Below are positions 7,911 to 62,428 of a stretch of 64,000 nt of DNA, piece by piece. The stretch lies in assembly GCF_901000735.1 (NCBI RefSeq), contig NC_081541.1, forward strand, positions 40,641,021 to 40,705,020. Reading direction: 5' to 3'. This DNA comes from Corylus avellana (Eukaryota > Streptophyta > Magnoliopsida > Fagales > Betulaceae). The position numbers and the translations under genes are program-made. Position 1 is the first letter of the stretch, and every line of letters begins with the position of its first letter. The notes below the pieces were generated by a model. The model worked only from the letters and a program-made list of their open reading frames with translations. It searched no databases and had not been told where the DNA came from.

Positions 7911-10599
7911 GAAATCAACACACTCAATAAGGAGGTCAACAAATACAAATCCTTTTTTTATTCAACATTGAAAGATCAACGCTAATTATTTGTGGTGTCA
8001 TATTGAAGACAAGATCTCACTCTTACATGACATACATTAATAAGACCTTAAATAATATAAAGTATATATAACTTAAAATCGAAAACTAGGATACGTGTAC
8101 TAATTAATTTCTTATATAGTCCTTTTTTTTTACATAATCTGCACAAGGAAAAAGAAAGGAGGGATGAGAGAAATTCGAAGTAGTGATCTTCACTTCATGA
8201 AGCATGGCCTCATCCGATTGAGATATCTGTCATGTACATTATATGGTTGTACTTAGAACAACTTTTAGAAAAATCTTGAAGCACAAATAGTCTAGACATT
8301 TTTTACTTTATCTCTAAAAATACACTTAAATGTTAACAAAAAATGATATGGGATTATATAGTCCTAAAATTCTTTGAAATGAGGCATTATTTTTATTTAT
8401 TTTTGGTTCAAATCACTCTTTATTAAGGTTTCATGTTATCAAATTGGCCATTCCGCACGTCTACCTTCAGTTCAATTTTTAATGGTACTGTAAATCATAT
8501 CCAATTAGAAGGTGACACATGTTTCATTCAACTACTAAAAATAGAAAGAAAAATTAAAAGAAGAAATATAAATGTAAAAAACCAAAAGGTAGAAAGAAAA
8601 TATAAAAATAAATACCGAAGGTCAAGTGGCCTCGCTGACCACCCTAAACGTCGGGTTACTAGTTGCTCAGGCCAACTCAAGTATGGGGATGACTTGCGCG
8701 ACCACCCCTATTTGCTAATGTGGATGGATGCGCAGAGTGGCCTTGCTACTACCTTACGCTCAATTTTTTTAAATAGTTTTTTTTTTTTTAATGTAAAAAA
8801 AACACGTGTTATGTTATAATTAGATATGAAGGGACACTATTGTTATAAATTTAATTAAAAATAGTCAAAAATACTTTTTTGATAACACTTAAACCTTAAA
8901 AGAGTAAAACGACAAAGATTTGATAAGAAAAAATTGGAGCTAGTGAAGTCTAAAGAAATTTTGTACTCTTTTTTTTTTTTGGGTACATTAATAACTATAT
9001 GTACTTAATTAAACAATATTTTTCTGAGCAATAAGTATGTTGTATATATAATATAAGAGTTGGATGAAGATCCACTAGCTGTCGTTTCATTTGTCGGCCA
9101 ATGTACCTGAAAAGATTTGACTTCCCCGTGTTTTCACATTTTGTTACCATTCCCTTCCATTCAGGTCCATGTCCTTTCATGCACGACCAGCCGTTTCTGG
9201 TACTTTCCTAGCTTGTTTTGGTACCAACCCTTTTTCCTCTTTTCATTCTTTGTTCTTCCCCTTTACTTCCCCTTAAAGCCACATTAAATTTTTTTTTTTT
9301 TATTTTTTTTTTTTTTTTAAAAAACACATATTCTCACTTTGTTTCTTACATTCTCAAATGCACTTTTTGGCGTGACACTAAAAAATGTTATTTAATTTTT
9401 TAATGAATTGCTATTGAAATTAAAATTTAATAATAATTTTTAGTGATACGTCAGAGAATTTGAGAATGATAGTATCAAAAATTTTGTAATCCTTCCATTT
9501 ACTAATGTGAAAAAAATGCCATAGCATAATGGAAGGATTACCATAGTTAGTACACATACTCATTCTACACCCAACAAAAAGAAGAAAAATACCATAATAC
9601 AATCCTTGTTGGGTGAAAAATGAATATGTATTAGGATTACAAATAAAGGAAAAGCATAATTATCATTATAATAAAATAATAATTTTTTTTATCAATTTAA
9701 AATTTCGAGATAACTGGTAATATAATATAGTATCAGAGTCAAGTTCTAAGTTTGTACTTTATCTTTGCCATTCACTTTCTATTTTAATTAAATGCTTTAC
9801 ATATTAATCCGCATTTGGTAATGGGTAATTTGAGCCCATACATTAAAAAGAAAAGAAAAAAAGATTATAATATTAACTAAATAATATGAATGGTTTTTCT
9901 TATTAATTTTAAATATTTGGGATTTAAGATTTATAATTTCATAGTTTACAAACTTATGGATTGAAATTCATGATAATTTAGGTAGCTAATATGAGCGAGT
10001 ATATATGAAATTTGCCTGTTCAAATTAGTGGTCAAACAACTTAAAATTTATTTGAATGTAAGAATCTCATATATACTCTCTTACATTAATTATGCAAATT
10101 ACTCTAACATTCCAATAAGCATTTCAATATAAGCTATATTTAAATTAAATAGAGTTGTTCTCCAAACTGTGTAGTAGAAGAAAACCCTATCCATTTCGAC
10201 ATAAGCATATATAGTTTTTTACTTGTCCAAACAAAAGGAATTATTGGGGAGAAAGATTCAATGTAATAACCTTCACTTTTTGAGATATATTCTCTAATCG
10301 TTTGAGACGATATAAGCATTTTTCAAAGAGGAATACTATGTGCTGCTTCTCTGGTGTTTTTCTTGTTTTGGATGAATATTATTTTCTAAAAATAGAAAGT
10401 GAGAAATAAGAAAAACTTATTTATTTATTTATTTTATAAAAAAAATAATATCTACTTCAAACTAAAATAGCACGAGAAAAATACTTATAATTTCTGATTG
10501 CTTAAATATGCTCAAAACATTGTAATAATAACAGCAATAAAGTTAAAAATTCTGAACTAGACAGGGGATTCTATATGGATTTTGCATATATTTGAGGAA
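7911..10599. other. Intergenic upstream of the SPL gene
   Basis: This is AT-rich sequence with a GC-richer segment at 8620-8760 and the TRIM remnant at 9680. Nothing coding is recognised. Confidence 0.5.
9680..9850 (+). mobile_element. TRIM remnant
   Basis: The primer site TAGTATCAGAGTC at about 9727 follows an LTR-like end (GATAACTGGTAATATAATA). An inner part with GCCATTCACTTTCTATTTTAA follows, then a GGGTAATTTGAGCCCATAC polypurine side. Confidence 0.6.
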
Positions 10600-11177: not shown

Positions 11178-14100
11178 ATGGAGATTGGCGGGAACATGTT
11201 CGGTCAGAGCAACGGTAACAGGGGGCAGAATAGTAATAACGGGAATATTGGGTGGGATATCTGGGAGCTCAGTACTTCAAGGTTGGATTGGGGGGGGAAT
11301 AATAGTAGCAACACCCTGTACACGACGACAGCCACCACCGCCACCATCACGGCGGGGAGTTCCACCGCCACGCACGAGGAGGGTAGTGCGGCGCACGCGC
11401 CATTTTTATTTCACCACCACGGTGGCGGAGCAGATATTGGCGTGCACCACCAGCAATTGCACTACCAGCAGGAGCAGCAAGGCTCCCTCTACGGCGCCGC
11501 AGATGGGTCCCAGCGCCACCCTGACCCACACCTTATGTGCTTGAATCTGGGGAAGAGGCACTACTTTGAGGACGCTACCCCTCTGGGTGATCGCCACGTG
11601 TCTAGGTCATCATCTATAGGCAAGAGAGGCAAACCCTACACCACCCCCCCAATCCCCACCACCACTGATCATAGAGGTGGCGGTGGTGGGCCTTCCTCCT
11701 CTTCCTCGCCGTTGCCGGCGACGGTTCCGAGATGCCAGGTGGAGGGGTGCCACGTCCCACTTCTCAACGCCAAGGACTATCACCGGAGGCACAAGGTCTG
11801 TGAAATGCACTCAAAAGCTCCCAGGGTCGTCGTTTTAGGGTTAGAGCAGCGCTTCTGTCAGCAGTGTAGCAGGTATTATCAAATTAGACCCTCAACAATT
11901 ATCAATTACCCTACACCTGAAAGACGAGTCGGTTTTTTCCGACGCTAATTTTCACTTTCACGACATTTCATACGTGTACATTAATCTTACTGTTAGTGGG
12001 TCTGTTTTTATTTTTTTCTTTGTGTTTATTTCATGTGAAATGAATGCAGGTTTCATGCGGTGTCAGAATTCGACGATTCGAAGAGGAGCTGCAGGAGGAG
12101 ATTAGCGGGGCACAACGAGCGAAGAAGGAAGAGCGCTCATGATTCTGCTACAAGGAACACTTCTCAAGGTATATAGAGACATGTTTTAGTCAATTTTGTC
12201 CCCTTTTGGTTTTTTTATAAAAAAAAAATTAAAAAAAAGGTTCTTTTGATAGGATTGTACCATATATAATCATTCGACTCTAGCTAAATTTACATTTTGA
12301 TAGGAGTGGAAATCTGGAATGGGTTTTTTCAGAAAGATGCGTACCTTTGCATATTTAGATTTGTCTAGCTAGGGCAAAGTTTTTGCCTTGGGGGTGAATC
12401 CCAAGAAAAAAGCATCAGGGTTCAGACTTCACAGTTCTTATTATATATTCTCAGGCATACTGTCTATTTAAGGCCCAACAATATTCATCCATCAAGTTGC
12501 TGCTGAAATGAATCCCTTTTACATATTGGAGTGCTACACATACTGATTGCTCTCTATCGTGTCAGTGAAAATTACGATTAAATGTCGAATCTAACGGTGA
12601 TTTTCATAGCTATGTTAGAGATTGAGCACTAGAGAGTATGTGTACTATTTCTATTTATATAAGCGTGCATCATGTAGAAATTTAGTTATGAAGCTTGCCC
12701 ATCTAATTTTTTCACATGCATCTTAGTAATTTGTATGTGATTTTATGTTTCTTTTGTTACAAAAATTTATGTGGCACATTTTCAAGCCCATCTTGGAAAT
12801 ACAATAGTAGTATCTCAAAGTTCTAGCCAAGGACATATTTTGTGGGCAAAATTGAAAGTAACTTAATAACGCATCATTAATTCGATATGCATTATCTGAA
12901 AGAAGATGATAAGTTAATAGGAAAGAGTAAATGTAATAATTTAATTAAACACTTTAATACCCTCCTTTACGTGTGGGCTTAAATTTCCCTTAATAAGTGA
13001 GTCAAACACACAAAATATTTAATTGAAATGAGAAGTGAATAACAAAAACGAAGTTCAAACTCAAGATCTTTCCTTTGATAATATTTTAAATCACTATTTG
13101 TTCTAAAAGCTTATGTTTCGTTTATTCCTTCCAAGCGATCGGAAATTAGATTTAACAGATTATTCCTCATGTTGTTGACCTACTTATTTGATCATATGAA
13201 GAGACTAAACATAAATAGAATATTGCATATAATTATTCCACAATTCTAATTTAAGTAGGACTAGCAAAACGATAAAAGCACAGTTTTTAATAAATGAAAG
13301 AAATCATATCATTTTAAATATAAATTTTCTAGATTTCACAGGTACGTACCTAATTATTTTTAATTAAATAGTTCAAGTTTTGTCATCTCATCATGTGGTG
13401 GGATGCTTAATTTTCTTGCCAAACAGTAATCTCACTTGCCTAATTGTTAAAATGAAGAATAAGAATCTGTTAGTGATCCTATGATGCTTAGGGTTTGGAG
13501 TTCATTGAAGATCACATTTCTGCTTGTCTCTGGAGTCTATATTTTATAGCTCTCAAATATTTTAGTTTAGAGGGTTAGCACTTGTCAAATAAAGGTATCT
13601 TGGTTACAAAGGAAAGACCAGAAGAAAATTAACTTTGTTTGGCCAAAGAGATTTTTGTAATTAGACTGAATCATACAAATAAAGTAACCAAATAGCATTC
13701 CTCATAAAAATTCTTTGTTCGGCACTGTATTGACTTTTAAATTCTTTTTTGACACATATATGATACGTCTGAATAAAAGAGTAATACTACATATGACACT
13801 CTCAATTCACTTCCATCCTATTGAGTTGATATGGTAAGATCAACCGTTGTTAATGAACAAAATATTAAGGATTGGTGAGCACTATCACATCGGCCCATGT
13901 GTGGTATTTGTGACTCCCATTTTGCATATTTGTCATGTGCTTAACTCTAATGTTAGTATTCATGGTGCTTGTTATACAAATAGATTATTATTGCATGCCA
14001 CTAATCAGATCTATTTCTTTGGTATGATTCGTTTCATGCTTTTTTGTTTATAATTATGTTGTATAATCCATGTTGAGCTCTCGAATTCGTATTGATTATA

Positions 14101-16536
14101 ATAAGAAGATTGGATAGCAATTGGAACTTATTCCAAAAGCTCAAGTTTATAGGAAAATGGTTAATTTGATCATTTAATTTATATTCTAACAAAACGTTCT
14201 AAATCCGTTTTTATATGTGTTGCTTTAACCGTTCTTTTTCTGGCCAGTCGACGGAGTAGAAAGAACGCTTCCCTTTTCCTTTACACTGTATATTTGAAAA
14301 ATTTATTTATTTGTACTTTGTTGTGCTTATAAAGATGGACTATCACGTTAGTTTCTAAATGATTTTGCATTAAAAGTTATATACCTCAAGCATTTCTCAA
14401 TATTGTGACAATATTTAACTCTCCTCTTTTTCATCATGGAAACCTGTTCTGCACGTCAGTTTCTAAATGATTTAATTTCCACCACGTAGAAAGTTGATGA
14501 TTCACAGTGCTTTCACTGAGTATGTTTCTAAATGCTGGTAAAACTTTTAGGAGATTTGGATAGTTTTGACAAAGTTTGCAACCTTAATGGTTCTTCAACC
14601 AAACATTCATGTTTCAAATTATTCTTAAGTTGTAAAATTTGCTGCGACGCTCCTAATGCATTTGCTCAGACACTCCTAATGCATGTTTTTTTTTTCTTCT
14701 CCTTCAAATCTTAAACTAAATTCAGGATAGGGCATTGTTTTGTTAACATGGTTTGAGATTAAACACTTAACACATGGAGACATGGTGTGAAACTACTGAA
14801 CTAAACTGTACAGAGAAAGAAGCTTTGCTGATAACGTTTTCATGTACACATATAGCTGCATTTTGTGAATTCAATATCCAGTCCAGTAAACATTATTGAT
14901 ACAACACATATGTTTCCTAGACGTTGTAAACGTTATATATGCAATGAGTGCTACTAGGGATACTATAACTTTTGCTGCAAACTGATGCAACAATCCACGC
15001 CATTTCACCTTTTATGGACAGTCAAACGAGTTTGTATGAGAATTGTAGTAAAAGCTTTAGTATCCCGAGCATTTTCCATTCCTTATTCATATATTCCCTC
15101 TTAACGGGATACCTTGAACACAAACTTGTTATAAGATTATATACTTCATTGTTTCAAACTACAAAATTGCATTTGTGCCAAACATAGATCATGACTACTT
15201 AAATTTATCAATCATACCTACATAAATTTGAGGGAAATATATGATGCTTACTATTCCATTGAGTACCTAAATTGTTCTTATTTCCTAATGTGGCAGTGAA
15301 AATCACCATTGATATATCATACACAGGTTAACTCGTTCAAAATCTAATAGTGATTTTCACAGTCACATCAGAGAATAAGTGCTTGGGAGTAAGAGCTTGT
15401 TTGGGATTGCGTTTGAGAAATAGAGCTTTTAAGTTAAAAATAGCTTTTGGGCAAAAGTTCAAGTTGTAAGCTTTTGCCAAAAGTGCAGTTTGGCCATTTT
15501 TAGGCTTTTTGGACATTTAAAAGTGTTTTTAAATTTTTTACCAAACGAGTACTTTTTTCTTCTAACGGACTTTTTGAGTGTTAAAAGCACTTTTAAACTC
15601 TTCAAACTCAATTCCAAACAGGCCCCAAGTAGAATTTGGCGTGTTTGCAATAGGCAATGGAAAATGATGCCATGCATGCACCTACAAGTCATGCTAAGCT
15701 TCTTGCATGTGCACTTCTAACCTACTTATGCATCATATGTATTTGCAATAGTTGGGAGTTAACATGAATATGAATCATGTAATTGAAAATAAAGGTGAAC
15801 ATGATGTAAATTTGTTTATAGGTGGGGGATTTCCGTACTTATCATCACCGACAGGACGTGCTCTCTCTCTTCTGTCATCCAAGACCGATTCTTGGGTTTC
15901 TCCACCCGATATCTCCTCAAGATCTAGTGCAGCACTTCGTGAGTTGATAGCAGAGCATCGTGCAGCCATCATGGCGGGGCAGCTCATTTTGGATCGAGAC
16001 CGGTATTGTTAAATTACCATTCATCTTAAAAGCTTAAGCTTATAAAAAATAGTAAATTTAATTATTTAATCAATATTCTAATACTCCTCCTTACATGTGA
16101 GCTCAAATTGATCTCCCTGAGCTCAAAATGTAGAATCTTTAATGAAATAGGAGGTGAATGATAACGATAATGTTTTAATTCAAGACTTTTTGTTCTGATA
16201 CCATGTTAAATTATCATTTATTTCGAAAACTTAACAGAAAATAATAAATTTAATCATTTAATCAAATATTCTGACAGGTATACAGAAAGCCATGGAATGG
16301 AGGATCTAGGTGAGGCTCAACGACGATCAAACTGTGTCATGCCCAACCAGCACCAAATGTTTCCCGAGCCACATAGTTGGAATAGATACCATGAAAGTGA
16401 CACCCAGTTGACACTAGATCTCATGCAGGCTTCTAGCTCGGCATTTGGATTACTGTCTGTGAGGGGGAAGAGTAAGGAGGAGGAAGAAGAGTGTTCTGAT
16501 CTATGGAACTCCTTTCATGGAGCCCATGAAATCTGA
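11178..16536 (+). CDS. SPL: SBP-box (SPL) transcription factor, miR156-targeted, 417 aa
   Basis: This is a nuclear DNA-binding protein of the SQUAMOSA promoter-binding-like family, whose members bind GTAC-core sites. Coding exons are 11178-11872, 12050-12168, 15822-16002 and 16278-16536. All junctions are GT-AG and stay in frame, giving 417 aa. The SBP domain spans about residues 186-260. Zinc site 1 is C186, C191, C208 and H211; site 2 is C227, C230, H234 and C246. A bipartite NLS overlaps its end (K243/R244 and R256-K259). Intron 1 falls inside CQQCSR|FH, the conserved SBP-box intron position. The N-terminus is rich in Gly, Asn, His, Ser and Thr, and an LNLGKR motif lies near residue 122. 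Exon 3 holds the miR156 site, encoding RALSLLS. Exons 3 and 4 are split only by a TRIM element. It resembles SPLs with a [16 protein letters not shown] segment; I could not assign an Arabidopsis subclade. Confidence 0.93.
12888..13113 (-). mobile_element. Degenerate TRIM copy in SPL intron 2
   Basis: It follows the layout of the intact element at 16007: a first LTR ending ACTTTAATA near 12959, a CCCTCCTT polypurine complement, an inner part containing ATTTAATTGAAATGAGAAGTGAAT, then CTTTGATAATATTTTAAATCAC, where a decayed primer site meets the second LTR. The second LTR stops after about 30 bases. Confidence 0.6.
14111..14191 (-). mobile_element. Solo TRIM LTR in SPL intron 2
   Basis: The segment shares CCAAAAGCTCAAG, GGTTAATTTGATCATTTAAT and the terminal ATATTCTAACA with the TRIM LTRs elsewhere in the window. 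No primer site or polypurine tract is attached, so it reads as a solo LTR. Confidence 0.6.
15393..15624. mobile_element. Non-autonomous hAT-like MITE, copy 1
   Basis: Imperfect terminal inverted repeats begin GAGCTTGTTTGGGATTGCG and end AATTCCAAACAGGCCC. The inside is made of AAAAGCTTTT- and TTTTGCCAAAA-like runs. Three relatives lie at 46195-46435, 57579-57812 and 61194-61424. The superfamily is inferred from general appearance; no clear 8 bp duplication was found. Confidence 0.55.
15858..15877 (+). promoter_or_regulatory. miR156 target site in SPL exon 3
   Basis: The 20 bases GTGCTCTCTCTCTTCTGTCA are identical to the target sequence found in most miR156-regulated SPL genes. They encode residues R284 to S290, the usual RALSLLS peptide. 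Pairing with miR156 would silence the gene in the juvenile phase. The SPL8 gene in this window has no such site. Confidence 0.95.
16007..16276 (-). mobile_element. Complete TRIM-like retroelement that forms SPL intron 3
   Basis: The element is 270 bp and oriented on the - strand. Two related terminal repeats lie at 16007-16083 and 16204-16276; both start TGTTAAATTA and end near ATATTCTRAYA. The ten bases at 16194-16203 (TCTGATACCA) next to the second repeat match the 3' end of initiator-Met tRNA, so they form a primer-binding site on the - strand. A polypurine tract (AAGGAGGAG on -) lies at 16084-16092. A perfect 5 bp target duplication GGTAT flanks it at 16002-16006 and 16277-16281. The inner region of about 110 bp has no coding capacity, as expected of a TRIM. 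The spliced intron is 16003-16277. Confidence 0.92.
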
Positions 16537-16925
16537 TTTTTCTTTTTCTCTTTTTTTTTTTTTTAAATTTTATTTTCCCTCTTTTTAAGTAGTTATTTAA
16601 CTGTATCTTTCAGTGTGAGGACATATAGACTTGTAGGATGATAGTTTTTCAAGCTGTATAATTCATGTGATCATTTGTTTTGCTTCATAAGTTTCATAAT
16701 TTCATCAATCAGTTAGGATATTGTGTAAAGAATAATATCATTTATAATCCATTTGGAAGAAAGTCTCTTACTGCATAAACCCCATCTACTCATGCATGCA
16801 GCCACAACTATAAGATCGTATAAGAGAAGATGTGTTTGTATATTTAAGACTAAAAATGTGTACTTTTTGATTTCATTTTACACGATTGTTCATGGAGTTA
16901 AAGTTTGAAGTCAGGACGTTCTTTT

Positions 16926-17014
16926 TTATTATATCTTAAGTCATCATTTATTTGAAAAGCTTAAGCCGATAAAAAAATGGTTGATTTAATCATTATATAA
17001 TTAAATATTCTAAC
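16926..17014 (-). mobile_element. TRIM LTR fragment downstream of SPL
   Basis: The segment contains AAGTCATCATTTATTTGAAAA, then GCTTAAGC, ATGGTTGATTTAATCATT and ATATTCTAAC in the same order as the intact LTR. A degraded inner region precedes it. Confidence 0.6.
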
Positions 17015-28628: not shown

Positions 28629-30224
28629 TTAACCGCTTGGGAAAAAGAGTGAACTTGATGATGCGGAAGAAGCCGTTCCGCCTTGAAAAGGTCGCTGCCT
28701 AAAGCAGTCCAATGACATTCGCGGCGGCGACACCGCCACCGTCACCGACGATGTTGAGTGAGCTCCGGAGTCCGGCGGAGACCCTGTAAGGACAACAAGA
28801 AAACAATCATATATACCCCACAGCTCAAAATTCCGCTTAGTTGACAATTAATATATACAACTTACTTTCAGAGGAGGAATTGCGGGCATTGTCAGGCTGG
28901 GATTTCAGGTGTTCTTGATTTTGTTGGTGGGTCTTTCGCCGGCGGCGATTGTGGTCGGCCAATCTCTTCCGGCAGCTGCGTTTCCCGTTATCGAACTCCG
29001 AGAGAAGATGGAATCTGTGACAATTGTTTAGCGAATAATGCGATGATTAGAAACTATAAATCACTACAAATGCAATTTCGTAAATATTATTAATTAGCGT
29101 ACGTGAACGGAAAAAGTGTGGTGAAAAAAAGAAAAAGAAAAAAACAAACAGCGATGTGAAATTTCCGGACGCAAATGCCCTCGAAATCCCCACATGTACG
29201 GCAGCGCCAATCATTGGATCAATAACACATCTTCCAGGGGCATTTGCGTCTTCGTAAGTTGGTAAGCTACAACCATCTTTGGGACTGAGCTGACAGATAA
29301 AATGATTGTTCTAGTTGTACATTTCCCTTCCGGTGGGGACTGCCCCGTGCCGGGGGTCTTTCCGTCATTTCGCATCAAAATTAAACTTTCTTAATTAAAA
29401 TTAAGCTTCTTAATTGCCCGACTGAACAATCAATGCAATACGAAGAGCAAGAGGAAGAGGAAGAGGAAGAGGAAGAGTTTTTCCAGACGCAAATGCCCTC
29501 AGGATCGGAGAACAATCCACCGGGGGCGCTTTCGTCATTTGGCAAAAAAAGAGTGCATGGGAAGGGGGACGGCAAATCCGTCAAGTGGACACAACCTGCT
29601 GCACTGCTGGCAGAATCGCTGAGTCAACCCGGCGGCGATGACGGTGGAGGCTTTGGAGTGAAACTCGCAGACCTTGTGGCGCCGGTGGTAGTGCTTGGCG
29701 TGGGTGAGGTCAGCGTTGCACCCCTCGGCCTGGCACCTGGGTGAGTTCGCCGAGCCCGGCTCGGCCGGCCTGGTCCGCCGATAAAGCCGGTTCACGAACT
29801 CGTCCTCGGCCGAAGAGAAGTACGTCCGTCCTCCTAGGTTAAGCCCGAGCCGGGACACAAAGTCCACGGGCCGAGACACCGCCTCTTCGCTCTTCGGAAC
29901 CAACAGGTACCCGCCTCCGCTTCCGGCGCCGCCGTTAACGGGGTGGTCGAGGGAGAGCAGTTGGGTGGGATGGAACGACGACGCGCTGGGTGGTGCGTAG
30001 GCGCGTGGGTCGAACAGCGAGTGGTGGAGCTGGGAATGGGTTTGTTGAGGCGCGGCGTTGAAGTGAGAGAAAGCGGCCGTCGTCGGTTGAGGGTTGAAGC
30101 CGCTGTTGTTGAAGGTTTGGGTGTAAGGGTCGAAGATTTGCCGTGTCTGGTCCGGGTCCGGAGCGGGCTCTTCCTCGCCCGAGAGCATCATCGCGCCCGG
30201 GTTGCCCCATTCGTAGTCCAGCAT
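28629..30224 (-). CDS. SPL8: SPL8 orthologue, SBP-box transcription factor, 310 aa
   Basis: This is a nuclear SBP-domain protein. In Arabidopsis SPL8 acts in anther and pollen-sac development and gibberellin responses, and LIGULELESS1 is its grass counterpart. Coding exons on - are 30224-29596, 29014-28866 and 28783-28629, all GT-AG and in frame, giving 310 aa. Family hallmarks include the [10 protein letters not shown] start, LVPKSE, a [19 protein letters not shown] segment and RLYRRTRP. The SBP domain covers about residues 164-238 (CQAEGCNAD to NRRRRK). The C-terminal tail [11 protein letters not shown] then SSSLFFPSG is also typical of SPL8. No miR156 site is present, as known for this clade. 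Exon 1 and its surroundings are clearly GC-rich compared with the rest of the window. Confidence 0.95.
29015..29595 (-). other. SPL8 intron 1 with a repeated motif and GA repeat
   Basis: The intron splits CQQCSR|FH, as in the other SPL. It contains ACGCAAATGCCCTC at about 29170 and again at about 29487, and the inverted form GGGGCATTTGCGT near 29236. A (GGAAGA)n run lies at about 29451-29477. The first and inverted copies could pair as a stem with a loop of about 50 bases. Confidence 0.6.
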
Positions 30225-48967: not shown

Positions 48968-51900
48968 TTACTGTGGTTTGTCTGATAGGCTTAAGAGGGA
49001 TTTGAGTACACCTGGGCTGATCTTGTCAGCAAGGGCACCTTTTTCTGAAATCAAAAGGGCCTTCTCCTTCATCTGGCTCTGTAGTTGTTTTGCATCAAAG
49101 TCGAGTCGTGCTTGATCTGCATTACAAGGATAAAACCTGTTAAAGAAAATAAATAGTGGGTTTATATTATTTTCTCCCACATTACTGATATTTGAGTAAT
49201 GCTATATACCATATTTTTATCCCACAACTATCCCATAATGTTGAAGTGTTAACAAAGACCAATACAAGGGTTGGTAGCACGTGAGAAAAAAATGTGGTTC
49301 TTAGCATTATTTTTATTATTTATAAGAGGAATACAAGTCAAGATAGAGATAAATATTATGAATCTAAACAAACTGAACTACTACCAAACCAAGATAAGGA
49401 TAAATACGAGTATACCACTAACCTACAAAACTCAACTAGATAAATGATAAAGATAGAATCCTCTAACAATCCCCCTGGAGTTAGAGATTATAAAATAATC
49501 CCAACTTGGAACAAATAAATGTAGCACATCCATGAAAAAGGGCTTTTGCAGTAACAAAAACTACTTCACTCAAAAAAATGTCACGAACAAAATCAACAAA
49601 CCAAACAGGCTGTAAAAACAGCCTGACTCGACCAAGAAACAAACTGAATTGGCTGAAAAAAAAAAAAAAAAAAAAAAAAACAATTGACTGACTGAAAAAC
49701 CAACGAACTGATCAAAAAACCAACTGAATCAGCCAAAAACAAATGAAATTGGCTTAAAAACCAACTGAACCAGCTGAAAAAAAAAACATTCTGAATTGGC
49801 TGAAACCCAACAAAACATGGCAGAAAACAACTTGAACCAGCCGAAACAAGAATTGAACAGGCTGAAACTCCATAAACTCGACCAAAAACTATCAAAACAG
49901 GCCGAGCTACAATTAATCCAGTTGGAAAGACAACTGAACTTGCTGAACCTCATGATACTCAGCCGAAAACTTCCGTGAAAGACTGGACTCACACAAAACA
50001 CATCAGAAAGTAATGGAAACCAGTCACCGGATACAGTTTACATTACATGGCCACAAACAATTGATGCCCAACTACAGGAATGAGGTTGATGACAGAAAAA
50101 GCTGCCATCAACCTCCAACCACTAATCCCACAACACAAAGAAAACAAAGAACAAAGAGTTATTTCTCCAGTTTGTGTGATTCACTCATTTGAAAATTGTT
50201 CTAACAGTATTAGAGTAGAGGTAATGAGTTTAAACCCTGACTCCATAATTCACCTCCTATTTAAAATTATATATTTCACGTGTTGACATCATCTGTAAAA
50301 GGGAGTTTGAGCCCATACATGAGAGAGAGTATCAAAACATTAATTAAATGATTAAATTTACCCATTTCTATCAGCTTAAGCTTTTGGGACAAGCAATGAA
50401 CTCAACATTAATAACATTTCAAACCCCACATGTTCTCAGCTAAAACATGATAGAAGTAGGAAGTGAAAAGTCAAATAGCCTATTTATTTGATAAATCTAA
50501 ATGCACGGGGACAAAGAAGAGGGTATTGAACCTCCTAGGGACAATGAAGTACTACCACTACCAGAGTTTAACATTGAACATAATGGCATTTTTAGATAAA
50601 TTTTAAATATTAGAATGACATAAAATTGTATCTGGATATCAGCTTTTTAAATAAGAAAGATCAAGAACATGATTCTTTCATCCAACTATTATCAATCAAT
50701 ACCAGGAATTGATAAATCTAAATCCACGGGGACAAAGAGAAGAGGGTATTGAACCTCCTAGGGACAATGAAGTACTACCACTACCAGAGTTTAACATTTA
50801 ACATAATGGCATTTTTAGATAAATTTTAAATATTAGAATGACATAAAATTGCATTTGGATATCAGCTTTTTAAATAAGAAAGATCAAGAACATGATTCTT
50901 TCATCCAACTATTATCAATCAATACCAGGATCATTTGGCATGCATGTAGGGAGACCCACAACGCTTTTGCTAGCACAAATTGCAAACCATCCTAAAGTAA
51001 TTAAAAACTGCTACAAAGGCAAAGCATACACTTAGCCTTGGCAACAATTACAATGATTGAAATGAGGGCATGAAGTCCAACATATCTAGCCAATAATAAA
51101 ATCAAATTATCAGGGACGTTCAACACTTTAATAGATAAATCATCTATGAGTTCCTTTACTTGTAATTACTTATAGTGATCATCAGACAAGTTTATTTCTT
51201 GAAAGGGTCTTCCAACTTCCAAGGCATAGCTGTTGAGGAATTTAAAACAATCAATCAATCAATCAGGTCTATCACTGCATCAAAATAGGTTTTATTCTAT
51301 ATTTACAAATATCTCTACCACATCAAATAATCAACCCTTTTTCTATTGCATTTTACAAACAAATTTAAGACGTGATCATTTACATGAGAACAATTTTCCT
51401 TTTTATAAGTAATCAAAATTCATTAAAATCAAAGGGCACACCCACGTACATATGATGTATACAACACCTACCCAGAAAAAGAAAAACAAGCAAAAAAGTC
51501 ATGAAAACTAGAAATATGATAGCAATCATTAGCAGCCATATAAAGGAAAAGGGTATTATAGAAAAAGGCCTTTAATTCCGCCACCGTCCTCTCACTATCT
51601 TTAAAGCTTTGATCATTTATTTCTATCCAAATGCAGAATCATCGTCCAAACATCTTTGCTTTGAAGACTACCAAACTGCCCTCTCCAACAAGCAAAGAAG
51701 TCTCTTACTCGACAAGGCATGTCCCATGCTAAATTGAACAAGCCAAAGATAGAGTTCTATAAGGCAGTAGATGAAGTAACAAGTGGTCAAGGGTTTCCCC
51801 ACTCTTCTTACACAAGTAGCACCAATCTACTACAATGATGTGTCGCTTCCTCAAGTTATTCAAGGTGAGAATCTTACCTAAAACAGCAGACCAAGCAAAG

Positions 51901-55984: not shown

Positions 55985-62428
<6,444 letters not shown>

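Follow-up and report, generated by a model that had tools for sequence, protein, structure and literature searches.

The third intron of an SPL gene in Corylus avellana is made up of a miniature LTR retroelement (TRIM) and one copy of its target-site duplication (TSD), and it is very probably a spliced intron that was born from this element. The locus lies in a stretch of 64,000 nucleotides, hereafter the window. The splice geometry, the restored frame, the empty sites, the break found in relatives and the conservation of the downstream exon can be read at the locus and in its homologues; splicing in Corylus, and its efficiency, we infer. Elsewhere in this genome a gene for a CHX antiporter is split in the same way, and it is probable that a single family of miniature LTR retroelements has twice given birth to an intron, with the same geometry each time. 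How introns originate has long been debated, and few clear births are known from flowering plants. For the SPL gene one can see together the element that gave the intron, its two duplications, the empty site and a break common to relatives, and the CHX gene reuses the same five letters. The event sits in a miR156-type developmental regulator, in which retention of the intron would give a protein without its tail.

The SPL gene and its third intron

The features of the gene and of the element within it are as follows, with window positions, strand and basis.

11178..11872, plus strand: SPL exon 1, from the start codon to the first part of the SBP domain (Pfam SBP, E=1e-17, profile positions 1-46 of 75)
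12050..12168, plus strand: SPL exon 2, second part of the SBP domain (read in sequence; full-length protein matches)
15822..16002, plus strand: SPL exon 3, up to the TRIM (sequence; homologous frames)
15858..15877, plus strand: miR156-type target sequence GTGCTCTCTCTCTTCTGTCA, upstream of the TRIM (read in sequence)
16002..16006, plus strand: upstream GGTAT copy of the TSD, with GTAT as donor (sequence)
16003..16277, plus strand: intron 3, 275 nt, phase 2, A+T 75.6% (GT...AG, frame restored)
16007..16276, minus strand: TRIM element, 270 bp, antisense to the SPL gene (repeats, boundaries, genomic relatives)
16007..16082, minus strand: 3' LTR of the element, adjoining exon 3, inner end approximate (direct-repeat alignment)
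16204..16276, minus strand: 5' LTR of the element, adjoining exon 4, whose terminal ACA gives the A of the AG acceptor (direct-repeat alignment)
16277..16281, plus strand: downstream GGTAT copy, whose first G completes the AG acceptor (sequence)
16278..16536, plus strand: SPL exon 4, C-terminal tail with a conserved 20-residue stretch (spliced frame; homologue comparison)

The spliced coding sequence of 1254 nt, with three introns, encodes a protein of 417 aa (45,878 Da, pI 7.16) which is 65-70% identical, over 99-100% of the query, to its four best full-length matches. Full-length matches in Fagales were Fagus (66%), Castanea (65%), Juglans (69%) and Carya (70%), one of them named SPL7-like. 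The gene has both an SBP domain and, within its coding sequence, GTGCTCTCTCTCTTCTGTCA, which by its complementarity we take to be a miR156 target site, and with that identity it belongs to the miR156-targeted SPL class. Among the exon-number groups of jujube, grape and poplar SPLs, in the portions of those sources consulted, there was none to which it could be assigned. A second SBP-box gene, SPL8-like by eye only, lies at 28840-30200 on the minus strand, about 12 kb past the end of the SPL gene and in opposite orientation.

With respect to the element, its ends read TGTTAAATT...ATTCTGACA (also read TGTTAAATT...TCTGACA), thus TG...CA, and it is flanked on either side by GGTAT. Its direct repeats align without gaps in a 31-nt block (81% identical) and a 28-nt block (93%), and its total of 270 bp with two LTRs of about 73-76 bp agrees with a class of elements of less than 1 kb without coding capacity. 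The minus strand adjoining the 5' LTR reads TGGTATCAGA, presumably a Met-tRNA-type primer-binding site, and a PPT-like purine tract, AGGAGGAG, precedes the 3' LTR. The LTR pair differs by a K2P distance of 0.18-0.21 with 3 gap openings. All of the differences are transitions (12 of 12 in one alignment, 11 of 11 in another), in contrast to the LTRs of the CHX copy (7 transitions, 8 transversions). Methylation-driven decay is a possible cause, and because the differences are all transitions the divergence may be inflated by methylation. Dating by a fixed clock was rejected, as a K2P of 0.206 gives anything from 8 to 103 My across rates of 1.3e-8 to 1e-9. Other TRIM-like stretches in the window lie at 9697-9805, 12908-13113, 16899-17014, 50245-50385 and 60435-60725; one is full-length-like and at least one lies inside intron 2 of the SPL gene.

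Intron 3 equals the whole TRIM plus one TSD copy, with no other sequence. The earlier note had proposed these boundaries, the GGTAT duplication and their sum, and all were confirmed base by base. Its division of the splice sites could likewise be read in the sequence: GTAT of the upstream copy forms the donor, ccg/GTATTG (slashes mark boundaries), and the ACA of the element with the first G of the downstream copy forms the acceptor, TCTGACAG/gta, or in longer form TTCTGACAG/gta. Removal of 16003-16277 restores GAC-CG/G-TAT-ACA exactly, as had been claimed, and the computed 417-aa frame runs across the junction, so that both the boundaries and the frame are those of a GT-AG intron. The intron is richer in A+T (75.6%) than the exons on either side of it (47.5% and 52.9%). 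All three SPL introns start with GTAT; as this includes the two older ones, the intron side of the TRIM donor is of a type which the gene already uses. The donor is without G at +5 and is not an ideal consensus.

Without splicing the frame ends ...DRDRYC followed by a stop, which gives 334 aa with the SBP domain and the miR156-type site intact. Translation bore out the earlier placement of this stop, after residue 334 with the miR156-type site kept (its miR156 identity again being assumed). The loss of the last 83 residues given with it needs correction: residue 334 is an LTR-encoded Cys, and therefore 84 native residues would be lost upon retention.

Homologous frames and the exon beyond the insertion

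For the state of the site in other plants, 48 frames were compared, comprising 47 of 86 homologue matches (ena, jgi and lgn sources) and a separate exon-4 frame, P0207. The choice among the 86 was made by hand, excluding records that bear a plant name and the majority of the weakest matches. The frames come from protein collections predicted on raw contigs and were used as genomic witnesses. The insertion site is uninterrupted in 44 of the 48; the 12 of these on contigs of at least 4 kb weigh most, because shorter contigs could be transcripts. P0121, on an 18,557-base contig and 77% identical, runs straight through the site, and begins MNKFI, resembling VNLFI of the SPL gene's own intron-2 tail. 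A continuous exon in relatives had been set beforehand as the test of intron gain, and it was found in these 44 frames, P0121 included; a TRIM-free intron at the same codon in distant orthologues, which had been named as evidence to the contrary, was present in none of the 48 frames compared. As far as predicted frames can tell, intron gain at the SPL site is supported.

The four frames which are broken at the site (P0132, P0160, P0162 and P0207) are the four closest to Corylus, at 88-98% identity, and among the 120 matches listed there was no full-length protein as close as these. P0132, on a 45-kb contig, opens with a 14-residue head which matches the end of the SPL TRIM in frame (BLOSUM score 51, against a best of 33 elsewhere in the window) and then continues RYTESHG... 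at 94% identity. The last residues of P0160, at query residue 62, are DRDRYC, the same ending as that of the unspliced Corylus frame. P0162 runs 19 residues beyond DRDRY, into LSNHHSFEKVKLIKIKRYI; this tail is only probably LTR, as it scores 40 against other family copies but up to 35 by chance in the window, and 9 against the SPL TRIM in an ungapped match. P0207, 92% identical, starts MEDLGG, a start that may be the gene caller's choice. The break point at the TRIM is thus common to several records and probably to several lineages.

The retained 334-aa frame, with its SBP domain and miR156-type site, and the donor short of the ideal consensus would also suit a version of the main reading in which retention is regulated and the TRIM intron acts as a switch between a full-length and a tail-less SPL, both under miR156. 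We consider such a switch rather unlikely: transcripts with a premature stop ahead of an intron that can be removed might just as well be degraded, and the retained frame is not fixed in relatives, P0162 reading on for 19 residues where the Corylus frame stops after one.

Whether or not there is such a switch, the reading of intron 3 as a TRIM-born, spliced intron leads to the exon beyond it. All 85 residues of exon 4 are intact despite the LTR divergence (K2P 0.18-0.21), and the exon is kept at 94% identity in P0132 and 92% in P0207. In neutral simulations exon 4 survived without a stop or indel with P about 0.002 on the element's own LTR clock and P=0.15 at conservative rates, and under the conservative clock this frame-survival test alone is weak. 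Relative-rate tests (Tajima-type) on exon 4, using 11 of the 120 listed proteins, gave no significant excess of change in the Corylus lineage in 11 of 12 comparisons; the single significant one (Fagus, with Liquidambar as outgroup; 9 vs 2, chi2 4.45) placed an excess in the Corylus lineage. By these measures the SPL tail appears not clearly relaxed. Judged from the comparisons above, the SPL insertion is old and shared, yet exon 4 is conserved.

Material from a related genus also bears on splicing. BlSPL16 of Betula luminifera, as described in the part of the source consulted, has a cloned and sequence-verified CDS, three CDS introns and a miR156 site in its coding region, and is the only member of group IX among the SPLs of that species, in which the other two three-intron SPL genes encode 480 and 468 aa (PMC5945835). 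Its values are 1245 bp, 414 aa, Mw 45,549.83 and pI 7.77 (PMC5945835), against 1254 nt, 417 aa, 45,878 Da and pI 7.16 in Corylus, with three introns in each. From size, mass and intron number BlSPL16 is probably the ortholog of the Corylus gene; its cDNA supports splicing of the SPL intron only if it is.

These results weigh on a second alternative, a disabling insertion, in which the TRIM is hardly spliced or not at all, the gene yields only the SPL of 334 aa that lacks its tail, and what was once exon 4 survives as a relic. The in-frame stop is real, splicing in Corylus is deduced from sequence, an intact 85-residue tail is not especially unlikely under the conservative clock and the one significant relative-rate comparison suggests acceleration. 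We nevertheless hold a disabling insertion to be improbable, given that the tail is intact in P0207 and in the clearly TRIM-bearing P0132, that survival on the element's own clock is so low and, if BlSPL16 is the ortholog, that a full-length, cDNA-verified three-intron gene exists in Betula.

A second exonic copy and the family across the genome

As with the SPL gene, an exon of a CHX antiporter gene is split by a copy of the family flanked by GGTAT. Two features define this case.

G000:C10:21674595-21674987: second exonic TRIM (locus L075), the intron in the CHX exon (GGTAT duplication, joined frame)
L076:999-1976: tandem CHX paralogue with uninterrupted exon, about 5 kb upstream of the TRIM-split copy

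This TRIM is 388 bp long and gives, with one TSD copy, an intron of 393 nt bounded by atg/GTATTGTT...ACTTTAACAG/gta. The joined frame of L075 has 385 aa, the first 300 of which match Pfam Na_H_Exchanger, and a further exon of the gene matches Pfam CHX17_C and CHX17_2nd; the unspliced frame stops at GALWYC. The tandem paralogue is 87% identical over 326 residues and at the site reads GCACTCTGGTACATGGTA, against the joined GCACTATGGTATATGATA of the TRIM-split copy. Between the two, dN/dS was 0.294 before the TRIM and 0.147, 0.27 and 0.234 in three stretches after it, without gaps, although such pairwise values do not isolate the TRIM-bearing branch because they span both copies and the time before insertion. 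The pairwise dS is uneven (0.219 before the TRIM, 0.537 just after it in the same exon, then 0.354 and 0.342), for which a conversion tract is one possible cause. The LTRs (K2P 0.237, 7 gap openings) are old, like those of the SPL TRIM. Neutral survival of the 538 codons beyond the TRIM has P about 1e-5 at conservative rates and about 1e-36 on the element's own LTR clock, which argues against a disabling insertion at this gene too. The CHX split is, from its geometry and frame, a probable second intron birth by the same family, with splicing presumed.

An ancient intron later overwritten by the TRIM and lost elsewhere is practically negligible as an explanation: genes and their surroundings commonly harbour TRIMs, for which introns may be a frequent target, according to the part of one survey consulted (PMC4717578), but insertion into a pre-existing intron was rejected on the boundaries, between which there is nothing besides the element and one TSD copy, and 44 spanning frames have no intron at the site and the CHX empty site is present in the tandem neighbour.

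The SPL element has 46 matches in the genome at E<=6e-4, from 40 scored of 2386 candidates, one of them itself and some overlapping, and the 15-mer at its inner LTR junction has 688 exact copies. The TRIM is thus a dispersed repeat and, because of its many relatives, not a chance resemblance. A genome-wide search for GGT sites with the pattern CTGATACCATGTTAN{45,75}RACAGGT, which may miss further exonic copies because it needs an exact 14-mer and set spacing, found four places, the SPL site and three others, with a matching upstream duplication in all four. Two of these, SPL and CHX, are exonic; L073 (GGTTT) and L074 (GGTTC) lie in no long frame and give joined frames of 38 and 30 aa. Copies with other clean duplications lay in a long open frame in none of nine cases, the largest joined frame being 123 aa. 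These nine were tested out of 11 non-SPL copies with exact duplication and good score, among 38 loci examined, two apparent duplicates being omitted. Two of four against none of nine is suggestive and does not amount to a measured enrichment. A random-point control did not discriminate at either exonic locus (the 95th percentile was the frame itself, and in L075 so was the median), because random points in a joined locus often hit the same long frame.

In minus orientation the GGTNN pattern had three matches, none with an exact upstream duplication, and one 1-mismatch copy had a joined frame of 47 aa. The NNAGG pattern had four matches. L084, with a joined frame of 67 aa, was the one whose duplication is exact; the remaining three were 1-mismatch assignments only, with joined frames of 61, 113 and 56 aa. 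One of these three, L082 (G000:C3:14657368-14657458), is a TRIM with a near-identical NNAGG duplication that is not exonic, a probable coding exon beginning some 90 bp downstream of it. With respect to introners, in which one family makes introns at several loci, the Corylus family has intron geometry at two, SPL and CHX, with splicing deduced at both. Its copies are not mostly introns, judging by two of four GGT copies and none of nine others, which cover a small part of the 688.

Proposed course of events and known systems

In the course of events that we propose, an antisense TRIM would have landed at G/GTAT in the third coding exon, at that time the last, of an SPL gene of the miR156 type. 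The 5-bp duplication would have placed a GTAT copy ahead of the TRIM to serve as 5' splice site. At the other end, the ...CA in which LTRs universally terminate and the first G of the second GGTAT copy would have formed CAG, the 3' splice site, and the A+T-rich TRIM sequence would act as intron body. The spliceosome would then remove the TRIM and one duplication exactly, leaving the SPL protein unchanged, and any retained transcripts would encode the 334-aa protein without tail. The same course may have been run at the CHX antiporter gene of this genome.

By geometric deduction, any LTR element on GGTNN would build such a splice pair in either orientation, because its ends are TG...CA on both strands. 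We lean, with some reserve, towards a wider reading in which LTR-type elements are latent introners: TG...CA ends on a proto-splice GGTNN (or AGGTN, NAGGT or NNAGG) would yield a precise intron in either orientation, and in this plant lineage the TRIM family would have made one on at least two occasions, in SPL and in CHX, each time on GGTAT. Long-lived exonic copies would be almost confined to such sites, so that a selection filter, and not a special element, would make introns in flowering plants. The rule that this suggests for any genome is that an exonic LTR element with TG...CA ends on GGTNN should be cleanly removable.

Introns made by transposable elements are already known. Maize Ds can act as a de novo intron, a TSD-flanked exonic element being spliced out as here; it differs in being a DNA transposon known from single recent alleles. 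The earlier note had likened the SPL case to introner-like elements; the likeness holds in part, for with two exonic cases found this LTR retroelement has not multiplied chiefly in the form of introns. As with the Corylus TRIM, introners are exonic mobile elements removed as introns, and in some of them the TSD or the neighbouring exon supplies both splice sites, entirely or in part, as described in the part of the 2022 survey by Gozashti et al. consulted (PMC9860276). According to the same part, most introner families look like products of DNA transposition, genes contain more of them than expected, and the survey did not find them in land plants (PMC9860276). The Corylus element, by contrast, belongs to the LTR retroelements, and two exonic cases were found against 688 exact copies of its junction.

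ONSEN of Arabidopsis is, like the Corylus element, an LTR retrotransposon, and one full-length exonic copy among new insertions is reported to be spliced as an intron in long cDNA reads (PMC12112155). In the portion of that report consulted, this single exonic case was fresh and experimentally induced and was attributed to LTR splice sites or context, its gene is named differently in Results and Discussion, and neither a TSD-built splice pair nor long-term retention is described (PMC12112155). Among rice duplicates, two of five gained introns resemble transposable elements, one of them Ty1-copia-like and recurring in a duplicate annotated as sodium/hydrogen exchanger (Lin et al. 2006, PMC1779517); the terms 'target site' and 'direct repeat' are absent from the main text, and the part consulted describes neither a TSD nor splice-site geometry. 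TRIM/SMART elements share with the SPL element its size, direct LTRs, 5-bp TSD and association with genes (PMC4717578, PMC3281118). The parts of these surveys consulted include exonized TRIMs, altered gene structures and TRIMs that 'served as exons or introns', a phrase which may mean TRIMs sitting within introns, and describe no whole TRIM turned into a precise new intron in a former exon (PMC4717578, PMC3281118). Our literature search, with most subscription literature and all supplements outside its reach, returned no account of the SPL locus and none of a TRIM that turned part of a one-time exon into a precise intron. Set beside these systems, a TRIM-born exact intron with a splice pair built from the TSD is a new form of the introns that transposable elements make.
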